In this document: positions 46,121 to 49,025 of the stretch, in pieces
Layout of the letters: every line of letters begins with the position of its first letter
Position numbering within the stretch: the stretch's first letter is position 1
NCBI GenBank assembly: GCA_015521705.1
Contig: WANR01000033.1
Location: 1-64,000 of the forward strand
Origin: Desulfurococcales archaeon
Lineage (GTDB): Archaea; Thermoproteota; Thermoprotei_A; Sulfolobales; Acidilobaceae
DNA length: 64,000 bases
Direction of reading: 5' to 3'
Notes under the pieces: generated by a model
The model's database searches: none
Told to the model about the DNA's origin: nothing
What the model saw: only the letters and a program-made list of their open reading frames with translations
Program-made: the position numbers and the translations under genes

Positions 46121-46529
46121 TCACCACTAGTTAAGCCCCCGAGACTATAATCTATGAACACTAGCCGGGAACCATTCGCCACAAGTAGGCCTGCTAACAC
46201 TAAAAAGCCGTTGCTATGCCAACATACTATTAACGGGCCCGCGGCAGTCCAACCCCCCGCCCCTCGGCGAGAGGGCCCTTAAAGGCCTTAATCAATGAAC
46301 CGAGGATTCCCTGCCGCGAGCCCGCTTTTCCTTGTTTCCGTGTCCATATTGCTCACCAAGACTTTAGAGCTGCACGCTAGAACCCTCTTTCTTGGACCCT
46401 TTTCGCTAACGTAAATATATGCGTGGAAGTATTACTCAATAACAGGGTTAATTCGGACAACTTAAGTATGCTTTGGGACAGTAAACTTATTATATAGCGA
46501 AGTAGCAATACTCAAAAAGGTGAATCATC
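46121..46529. other. Promoter-rich gap before the roadblock operon
   Basis: 409 bases without a convincing gene. It holds the minus promoter of the GlcD-like gene near 46146-46155 and a CCTC/GAGG small hairpin (about 46260-46273). At the right end are the plus-strand TATA TTATTATATA (46488-46497) and ribosome site AAGGTGA (46517-46523) that drive the next gene. Confidence 0.4.
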
Positions 46530-46895
46530 ATGTCGGCAGCTGTAGGTAGAGTTCTGACGGACATGATTAGAGTACCAGGCGTCGTAGCGGTTTTTGTGGT
46601 AAGCAAAGACGGATTTATAGTCGAGAAGGCAGTAGGCGGCGGGCTTGAAGTAGACGAAGACGCCATCGCCGCTATGATAACCGCCGTATATGGATCCACT
46701 AACCAGCTGGGCGAGGAGCTGAAGATGGGCACGCCGGATACTGTGACGCTAGAATACCCCGGCCACTATGTGCTACTTCACGACCTCGGCGGGGAACACA
46801 TGGTCGCCGTCATGGCTGAAAAAGCTAGAGCCGTGCTTGGAAGGCTTAGGTATGAGATCAGAAAACAGGCTCCTAGGATAAAGCAGTCATTGTGA
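46530..46895 (+). CDS. Roadblock/LC7 domain protein
   Basis: 121 residues that fill one roadblock/LC7 (MglB-like) fold: VGRVLTDMIRVPGVVAVFVVSKDGFIVEKAV (helix then strands), DAIAAMITAVYGSTNQLGEELKMG (the long dimerising helix), VTLEYPGHYVLLHDLGGEHMVAVMAEKARAVLGRLR (strands and last helix). In bacteria MglB stimulates the MglA GTPase; archaeal relatives occur beside small GTPases. Here no GTPase is adjacent. ATG with AAGGTGA. First gene of the three-gene operon. Confidence 0.88.
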   Translation: MSAAVGRVLTDMIRVPGVVAVFVVSKDGFIVEKAVGGGLEVDEDAIAAMITAVYGSTNQLGEELKMGTPDTVTLEYPGHYVLLHDLGGEHMVAVMAEKARAVLGRLRYEIRKQAPRIKQSL

Positions 46896-46921
46896 AGTAA
46901 CTGGCGGGTGAGAGTGACGGT

Positions 46922-47437
46922 ATGGGCGAGGAGATGTCATTGTCTGAGAAGATAACCATACCAAGCGGCCTCATAAACGCAATAATAGCGGGCTACCAGG
47001 TAGCCCTAAACAGGACGCTCGGCAAAGGAGCCGCCGCCATGACGCAGCTACTCATTAAAGACATTGGCGAAGTGCTGGAGCACCTTCTCGAAGAGTCTGG
47101 CTTCGAGCTCCACGAAGTTAAGGATCTCAAAAAAGACATCAAGAAGGCTTTTAGCATGCTGAATATAAGCAACAAGGTAAAAGTAGAGGTGCCTAAGGAC
47201 GGCACAGAAGCTGGCGACAAGTATGTCATAAAAATACACGACAGCATATTCAAGCCTGTTGCAAGGCTTCTCTACAAGAAGGGGATACCCTACACCCTAA
47301 GCCCTGAATCATTCATAGCAGCGGCCCTGGTCAGAATGGCTATACGCAAGGTCAAGCCAGACGCACAGGTTAAGGTGAAGGTGCACCCCCAGGAGAGCCC
47401 CGACGACCCCCTCGTGATCGAGGTAATAGTGCGCTAA
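46922..47437 (+). CDS. Unknown helical protein in the roadblock operon
   Basis: 171 residues, soluble. N-terminal half is helical (SGLINAIIAGYQVALNRTLGKGAAAMTQLLIKDIGEVLEHLLEESG), the second half mixed (VKVEVPKDGTEAGDKYVIKIHDSIFKPVARLLYKKG, then strands VKVKVHPQESPDDPLVIEVIVR). A nucleation such as IKIHDSIF and the mixed layout recall V4R-like or heme-sensor folds, but I do not assign one. It starts 27 bases after the first roadblock gene. An in-frame ATG at 46934 is an alternative. Confidence 0.7.
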   Translation: MGEEMSLSEKITIPSGLINAIIAGYQVALNRTLGKGAAAMTQLLIKDIGEVLEHLLEESGFELHEVKDLKKDIKKAFSMLNISNKVKVEVPKDGTEAGDKYVIKIHDSIFKPVARLLYKKGIPYTLSPESFIAAALVRMAIRKVKPDAQVKVKVHPQESPDDPLVIEVIVR

Positions 47438-47475
47438 GCCCCTCAACAAACAACAGTGGGGAGGTTTAAACGTCT

Positions 47476-48231
47476 ATGCTTTCAAGGGAGCCTAGCCGAC
47501 TACCCGACCCCAAGACACTGGCCTCAGTAGTTGAGTTCGCCTCGAAACTCACAGGTTTTGAATACCTAGTGGCTTCGGCCGAGGGCTTGCCCATAGCTTA
47601 TACTGGTACAAGCAGGGAGAAAGCTGAGAGCATGGCTGCTCTCAGCGTTGACATAGTAGAGCCCTCCTATAAGGTGCTCCGAGAAATAGTGGGACAAGAG
47701 CCAGGCTACGTCTATATTAATATAGATGAAGGAAGGGCCCTTGCCTTCTCTAGAACAGGAGGGCTCATACTAGTAGCTTACGGTAAAACCAAAGTACTGA
47801 GAGAAGCGCTAAACGCAGTATCACGGCACCTAGCAGGTACCAAAATAAAGTGCGGCGCCTGTGGCGGGGATCTCACTCTTGCAACCCACAAGTGCCCCCA
47901 CTGTAAGAGCACCATACCCTTCATATCTAGCGAGTGCCCCCTATGCGGCGCTACAGTAAGCGTTAAGAAGTGCCCCTACTGTAAGACCAGCATCCTTATT
48001 GACAGAGAACTTGTCGAAGCTGGACGACCCGTGGCCCAGTATACGTCGAGGAAAGTGGCGCTCCTAGCACTAACTGCTACCGGATCCGTGGCTGCAGGCA
48101 TCATATCAGGCTATGCAATAAGCCAGGCGTGGGGTATTGATGCAGGCATCCTATCCGCTATCGGTGTTGGAGGCCTAGTGGGACTCATAGCTGAAGTGCT
48201 AGCTCTCCGGAAGATGCGCCAAGCTGTTTAA
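47476..48231 (+). CDS. Roadblock, double zinc ribbon and membrane-anchor fusion
   Basis: 251 residues. The N-terminal roadblock fold (about 10-122) reads FEYLVASAEGLPIAYTGTSREKAESMAALSVDIVE. Then two zinc ribbons with four CxxC pairs, CGAC, CPHC, CPLC and CPYC (about 130-180), with a SECP spacer. A C-terminal pair of hydrophobic segments (LLALTATGSVAAGIISGYAI and GILSAIGVGGLVGLIAEVLAL) ends in RKMRQAV. So the protein would sit on the inner membrane with its roadblock and ribbon domains in the cytoplasm. Third gene of the operon, 38 bases after the second. ATG after GGGGAGG. Confidence 0.82.
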   Translation: MLSREPSRLPDPKTLASVVEFASKLTGFEYLVASAEGLPIAYTGTSREKAESMAALSVDIVEPSYKVLREIVGQEPGYVYINIDEGRALAFSRTGGLILVAYGKTKVLREALNAVSRHLAGTKIKCGACGGDLTLATHKCPHCKSTIPFISSECPLCGATVSVKKCPYCKTSILIDRELVEAGRPVAQYTSRKVALLALTATGSVAAGIISGYAISQAWGIDAGILSAIGVGGLVGLIAEVLALRKMRQAV

Positions 48232-49025
48232 TATAGGAGAAAGCCTAGCTCTGAAAGGAACTCGGCAGAGCTACGATAGCACTTTGACTCAAGTAGTTTT
48301 TCGTTCCTTATTGCAAGCAGCATGTATTGGCACTCGTCGTTATTACTAGCCTCACCCTGATTAGTCCTCGCCAGGCAGTACACGTTTTCCTCACTCCTAT
48401 AATACCCTATGCCGTCGACTATTGCCTGCAGAATAGCACCCGCCGGGTTCACCGAGGGATCGTGCTCCCTAATATAATCCAGGCACACCCTCAACGCTTC
48501 CGGCCTGGAGTCTTCCCAGCTCTCATGTCCAAGATCTTCAATACCCACACCAGCCTGTGTAGGCCGGGAATACTGTTCATATCCCAGGAGAGCCAGCAAT
48601 TCTGCCAGTACTTCATTTAAATTCTCTCTGTGGAGAAGTTTCATCCTAAGTGAAGACGCCCTGCTAGTCTCTAAATCTATCATGTCGTCTGAAACCAGGA
48701 AAAACTCGTATGAGACTGCATAAACCCCACGTGAGTTGAAGTTGCTATCAATGTTTGACACTATGGAGTAACTCTTAGGATCTCTCTTAAACACGCGCAC
48801 CTCATAAAAACCTCCGCTCATAGTGTAGGGCTCTGTTTCCAGGACAAGCCTAAGGGCACACCTATCATCAATCTTTAAGCAGAGATTGTTAAACATGCCT
48901 AGCAAAGACTGGGTTACATCCCTTAACTCCTTACCCTCTTCAAGCCTTTCAAAGCCATTGCCTAATACACGTCTAAACTCTATTGGTGGTAGCTCGCGAG
49001 GCCCTGAATCAGCGGATTCATGCAT
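48228..49025 (-). CDS. Orphan protein, unknown function
   Basis: 265 residues, mostly acidic and polar, with no membrane helix or signal. It has scattered Cys (NNLCLKIDDRCALRL, RVCLDYI, YCLART, ECQYMLL, ESKCYR). Its codons are richer in A and T than those of neighbours (for example frequent ATA, TTA, AAC/AAT). That may mark foreign origin. No family recognised. The start at 49025 is ATG in a run of ATGC repeats (CATGCATG), and 70 bases further is a tandem 15-bp repeat on its promoter side. It ends 4 bases inside the last roadblock gene. Confidence 0.65.
   Translation of the reverse strand: MHESADSGPRELPPIEFRRVLGNGFERLEEGKELRDVTQSLLGMFNNLCLKIDDRCALRLVLETEPYTMSGGFYEVRVFKRDPKSYSIVSNIDSNFNSRGVYAVSYEFFLVSDDMIDLETSRASSLRMKLLHRENLNEVLAELLALLGYEQYSRPTQAGVGIEDLGHESWEDSRPEALRVCLDYIREHDPSVNPAGAILQAIVDGIGYYRSEENVYCLARTNQGEASNNDECQYMLLAIRNEKLLESKCYRSSAEFLSELGFLLY

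Follow-up and report, generated by a model that had tools for sequence, protein, structure and literature searches.

What does a roadblock operon do when no Ras-like small GTPase is found beside it or elsewhere in its genome? The question is raised by three adjacent open reading frames (ORFs) in a 64,000-nucleotide stretch (the window) of contig WANR01000033.1 from a heat-loving Desulfurococcales archaeon of the Acidilobaceae (assembly GCA_015521705.1; 1.66 Mb, 55 contigs, ~82% complete). An earlier note, made from the sequence alone, had described two roadblock proteins flanking a helical "unknown" and a possible membrane-linked platform for a distant small GTPase. Its layout of roadblock protein, middle protein, and roadblock-zinc-ribbon-membrane protein was exact in coordinates and strand. 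The present analysis mainly adds a TRAPPC3-like identity for the middle protein, indicated by modeling and profile alignment. The ORFs are called P1, P2, and P3; P4 is a further operon protein found in relatives, and cl3 is the convergent neighbor.

46530..46895, + strand: P1, stand-alone roadblock/LC7 protein, 121 aa (Pfam Robl_LC7)
46922..47437, + strand: P2, protein with a predicted V4R/Bet3 (TRAPPC3) fold, 171 aa, no cysteines (AlphaFold [AF2], Foldseek, hhalign)
47476..48231, + strand: P3, roadblock domain (~aa 10-118), two zinc ribbons, and a predicted two-helix membrane hairpin (aa 193-247), 251 aa

Predicted fold of P2 and domains of P1 and P3

Searches with P2 gave nothing significant in Pfam, NCBIfam, or PDB sequences. 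Its weak Pfam matches (HTHP and FeoA) were inconsistent and at chance level and were rejected, and the Pfam V4R profile matched none of 23 P2 family members at an E value of ≤1 and nothing in the window genome. The AF2 model of P2, built from 23 homologs, is confident, with a mean predicted local distance difference test score (pLDDT) of 84.6. Along the chain, an initial pair of helices, the first of them long, is followed by a pair of strands, a second pair of helices, and a second pair of strands. The helices lie on one face and a twisted four-stranded sheet lies on the other, as in the V4R/Bet3 fold. Helices are thus present, four of them in the model, but the plain helical reading of the earlier note is ruled out by the predicted alpha/beta architecture. 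In a Foldseek comparison with the PDB, the top 24 matches were all Bet3-family subunits of the transport protein particle (TRAPP) complexes (best match, E value of 8.7e-6, probability of 1.00, template modeling score [TM-score] of 0.59), followed by the V4R sensors MopR and PoxR and by H-NOX. The TM-scores against the Thorarchaeal TRAPPC3 (7yh3) were 0.58/0.63. Viral proteins gave no significant fold match, and a viral identity for P2 was set aside.

V4R is homologous to Bet3 (PMC2253512), and profile comparison connects P2 with the same superfamily. The hhalign alignment of P2 with V4R proteins of Ignicoccus and Pyrodictiaceae covered 143 columns with an E value of 1.6e-6, and its score of 46.1 compares with a maximum of 24.1 in 100 column-shuffled controls and with values of <16 in reversed and unrelated family controls. 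Together, the fold matches and the controlled profile alignment indicate that P2 belongs to the V4R/Bet3 superfamily as a divergent member. This superfamily has glycine pairs in two of its helices (PMC2253512); in P2, as aligned by hhalign, one position of each pair holds a small residue (G49 and A135) and the partner positions hold I45 and M/K139, the second helix being uncertainly aligned. Cysteines are absent from all 19 operonic P2 proteins, and with them the V4R metal site. Because of the missing cysteines and the incomplete glycine pairs, P2 is not filed as a member of the V4R family itself. It resembles prokaryotic V4R proteins, including Igni_1332 (PMC2253512, PMC5468417), in the homology seen by profile alignment but differs from them in lacking a Pfam V4R match and cysteines, in keeping only half of the glycine pairs, and in being encoded with roadblock genes.

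Both flanking proteins exceed the curated Pfam Robl_LC7 cutoff of 23, P1 with 34.3 bits (E value of 2e-8) and P3 with 25.1 bits (E value of 1.4e-5), and the available window genome gave no other roadblock match. The best PDB match of P1 is the Robl_LC7 protein 7f8m (E value of 7.9e-5), and the second is CvnB5 of a conservon. P1 is 50 to 85% identical to its operon orthologs, with a ratio of nonsynonymous to synonymous differences (pN/pS) of about 0.10. The Double zinc ribbon (DZR) profile matches P3 above the Pfam cutoff (E value of 3.9e-6), with four CxxC pairs at aa 126, 140, 154, and 166, and two hydrophobic segments (aa 193-215 and 219-247) form the C terminus. Four cysteine pairs, one of them changed to CxxxH in some proteins, and a hydrophobic C terminus are common to all 19 P3 orthologs compared. 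The two roadblock folds and the two zinc ribbons reported by the earlier note are therefore borne out, and its membrane anchor corresponds to this hydrophobic C terminus, a predicted anchor.

Conservation and linkage of the gene set

Among 48 genomes of the family, P2 is present in 12 and roadblock genes in 14, and all 12 P2 genomes carry a roadblock gene; among 214 genomes of the order, the counts are 34 and 46, with an overlap of 33 of the 34. The Fisher p values for these overlaps, 1.3e-9 and 5e-27, ignore shared ancestry, a concern that is reduced by four genera (g3, g9, g11, and g12) in which P2 and roadblock vary within the genus and are present or absent jointly. The lone P2 genome without a roadblock match (G517) is 72% complete. 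P2 and roadblock genes have been gained or lost together, and the set is maintained as a unit. A sampling of 398 genomes across the phylum yielded P2 within this order only.

Families f1 (Acidilobaceae), f2, and f8 together include 22 distinct genomes with P2 in which P1 and P3 belong to the same gene cluster; the named relatives are Acidilobaceae/Desulfurococcales, mostly represented by metagenome-assembled genomes (MAGs). In f1 the genes run P1-P2-P3, most f2/f8 genomes place P4 ahead of them (P4-P1-P2-P3), and a genus of family f3 (g199) has P2-P1-P4. At one locus (L037, a contig also represented by L181), P3 has the opposite orientation but remains a direct neighbor, and the G445 cluster is divided between two contigs. 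A lack of joint conservation, which the earlier note had named, together with a lack of interaction, as refuting its proposal, is thus contradicted in three families and in g199. Pairwise identities of P1, P2, and P3 correlate (r of 0.74 to 0.85). Against the two closest relatives, the pN/pS values are ~0.10 to 0.15 for P1 and P2 and 0.40 to 0.45 for P3, indicating purifying selection and hence that all three ORFs are coding.

Some relatives show other arrangements. One MAG (Thermodiscus sp., L033:5177-9954) carries two divergent cassettes, P1-P3-P4 and P1-P2-P3, which suggests duplication. The P2 homolog at G514:C30:47430-47910 is seemingly broken into two frames. In three Ignicoccus-family genomes, a conserved 260- to 280-aa protein lies directly 3' of the P2 homolog (L096:9451-10290, L097:9903-10736, and L204:4911-5687), and its only match is a subthreshold one to a beta-propeller (WDR19, E value of 0.0028). 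A Pfam V4R protein lies ~4 kb from a P4-P1-P2-P3 operon at L095/L103 (G378:C31). At L107, L110, and L111 (family f2), a GspE-like secretion ATPase is adjoined by a V4R protein whose N-terminal domain looks ACT-like by eye.

Small GTPases and the possible role of the operon

Four GTPase profiles (Roc, Arf, Ras, and SRPRB) detected no Ras-like small GTPase, either in the window genome (~82% complete) or in operon-bearing relatives, several of which are ~99% complete. All over-threshold matches fall in frames of 344 to 732 aa, and two of these long frames in the window genome were read as an HflX/Obg-type GTPase and aIF5B. Two partial matches in shorter frames, in G510 and G514, are subthreshold. 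A hidden small GTPase was rejected because the over-threshold matches occur in long frames only. The earlier note's phrase "without a GTPase" therefore applies to the operon as well as to the available genome, and its idea of a distant small GTPase is disfavored, since neither the operon's own genome nor near-complete genomes with the operon gave a Ras-like GTPase. That idea, in which the roadblock proteins form a GTPase-activating or guanine nucleotide exchange platform like MglB or Ragulator for a small GTPase encoded elsewhere, has precedents: roadblock dimers of MglB/MglA, Ragulator, and the actinobacterial conservons bind Ras-like GTPases (PMC4316618), and CvnB5, the second PDB match of P1, belongs to a conservon. 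The absence of matches to the four profiles makes it improbable. The operon resembles Ragulator-Rag and MglB/MglA in its proposed roadblock pair and in anchoring, which in Ragulator is provided by the partner p18, but no Rag- or MglA-type GTPase was found by the four-profile search, the predicted transmembrane hairpin is fused to a roadblock domain, and there is an additional V4R/Bet3 subunit.

We favor a membrane scaffold that works independently of a GTPase, resembles TRAPP and Ragulator, and includes a V4R/Bet3-fold subunit, and give this proposal roughly even chances. Such a scaffold may be a simple prokaryotic relative of the platforms on which eukaryotic membrane traffic relies. P1 would pair with the N-terminal roadblock domain of P3, and the C-terminal hairpin of P3 would anchor this pair on the inner side of the membrane, both termini probably lying inside by the positive-inside rule. 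The zinc ribbons of P3 could serve as a docking arm. P2 may dimerize through its long first helix, as Thor-TRAPPC3 does through two N-terminal helices, and the dimer may dock onto the roadblock pair in the way that longin pairs of TRAPP receive their Bet3 subunits. The platform would have a variable partner in P4 or cl3. Since no GTPase was detected, the platform is proposed to work without GTP switching, as a constitutive or ligand-gated tether or organizer of processes at the membrane or the surface; a hydrophobic ligand bound by P2 might provide the gating. The earlier note's membrane platform is thus upheld at the level of its parts (co-conservation, a predicted anchor, and a TRAPP-type fold for P2) but not in its service to a GTPase, and it becomes more plausible because the predicted P2 fold is that found in TRAPP, a eukaryotic membrane-tethering complex.

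As in the TRAPP core (TRAPPC3/Bet3-C6 and the longins C1/C4), a Bet3-fold subunit is encoded with small alpha/beta dimerizing platform subunits, and membrane association is proposed here as well. The same two fold families occur in Asgard archaea as roadblock and TRAPPC3-like proteins (PMC10933270), of which the latter dimerize through their two N-terminal helices (PMC10933270). Asgard genomes have many Rab-like GTPases, and the genes reportedly are not generally in operons with them (PMC10933270), whereas here the genes are operonic and belong to Thermoproteota; P2, being cysteine-less unlike Asgard TRAPPC3, also lacks the four-cysteine zinc site. No description of an operon combining roadblock and V4R/TRAPPC3 genes was found in the open-access papers searched, subscription papers being outside the search.

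Data from Ignicoccus fit a membrane or contact role: the V4R protein Igni_1332 is located at the inner membrane and at putative fusion sites (PMC5468417), and the roadblock protein Iho_0929 rises 3-fold with Nanoarchaeum (PMC3149612). An identification of Igni_1332 as the P2 ortholog is unsupported, since the P2 homolog of I. hospitalis (G181, position 1166943) and the Pfam V4R match (position 1185707) are different loci; judged by gene order, the latter is the likelier Igni_1332. Ignicoccus has an endomembrane system, and relatives of the operon parts occur there. Iho_0929 and the Ignicoccus P2 homologs gain a candidate common system.

Several observations weigh against the scaffold, in addition to the ancestry ignored by the Fisher tests. 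The likeness between P2 and the TRAPP subunits, with a TM-score of ~0.59 and a root mean square deviation of ~5 Å, is at the fold level only and does not amount to orthology, and fold likeness is not function; V4R proteins are mostly viewed as sensors of hydrophobic ligands. TRAPP has a longin heterodimer core and a Rab substrate, whereas the operon has roadblock domains by Pfam and its own transmembrane anchor, and no Rab-like substrate was found. P2 homologs are also apart from roadblock genes in Ignicoccus (G181), Pyrolobus (G119), and most Pyrodictiaceae, and some roadblock cassettes (P1-P3-P4 and P1-P4) lack P2, which indicates that P2 is not obligatory. The stronger version of the scaffold, a GTPase-free prokaryotic counterpart of TRAPP in which an anchored roadblock pair and a Bet3-fold dimer tether or shape membranes in hyperthermophilic Thermoproteota, is unlikely in our estimation. 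Were it true, roadblock-type and Bet3-type modules could partner outside Asgard archaea and without Rab control. Eukaryotic TRAPP is built around roadblock/longin and Bet3 proteins, a partnership that has so far been traced only to Asgard archaea; with the Thermoproteota operon, the long-standing question of whether such platforms predate small-GTPase switching and can work without it becomes testable.

Two further explanations dispense with tethering or assign the operon to a surface structure. P2 may bind a lipid or aromatic ligand in the manner of V4R domains, and the roadblock pair and membrane arm may relay the signal to an effector such as P4, cl3, or a transcription or enzyme target. 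The homology of P2 to V4R proteins, which have been described as hydrocarbon-binding regulators (PMC2253512), speaks for this relay, as does the position of the variable partner P4 (subthreshold DUF4388 match) next to P1. P2 lacks the V4R cysteine metal site and full glycine pairs, and the neighborhoods contain no constant DNA-binding or enzymatic effector; we rate the relay as an alternative of fairly low probability, well behind the scaffold. A regulatory role in a type IV pilus-like surface structure, comparable to that of MglA/MglB in bacterial pili, is suggested by the frequent location of roadblock arCOG02603 genes within archaeal type IV pilus loci (PMC4858521) and by GspE-like ATPases in three of the neighborhoods searched. 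No GspE-like ATPase lies near the window operon or in the large majority of the neighborhoods, pilins and TadC-like proteins not having been searched. Linkage to type IV pilus genes, as judged by the GspE-like ATPases, is only scattered, and a pilus regulator appears the least probable of the explanations considered.

Variable partners, operon signals, and another window ORF

Besides the three ORFs, the locus contains the following features.

46490..46496 and 46517..46523, + strand: TATA-like TTATATA and Shine-Dalgarno-like AAGGTGA, 5' of P1, read by eye
48228..49025, - strand: cl3, 265 aa, convergent, overlapping the P3 stop codon, operon-linked in Acidilobaceae

P1, P2, and P3 are separated by gaps of 26 nt (P1/P2) and 38 nt (P2/P3), and Shine-Dalgarno-like motifs read in the sequence precede P2 (GGTGA) and P3 (GGAGGT). 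The archaeal promoter is a candidate judged by eye, and the three genes probably form one transcript; several relatives are also AT-rich upstream of P1.

By hidden Markov model search, 9 of the 11 Acidilobaceae contigs carry cl3 in convergent orientation just after P3. The cl3 protein is fast evolving, with C181, C217, C232, and C249 invariant. cl3 gave no recognized domain and no fold match with a usable TM-score; FatA-like Foldseek matches (TM-score of ~0.2) were discarded. A relationship between cl3 and the P4 family is only suggestive, the pair comparison being colinear but weak (E value of 0.003). An assignment of P4 to DUF4388/PATAN was not retained because the match is subthreshold. Elsewhere in the window, an RtcB-like ORF of 950 aa (2985-5837, + strand) contains an intein-like insertion that starts with CLPPGTKVLTPLG and ends near VADGFVVSNC.
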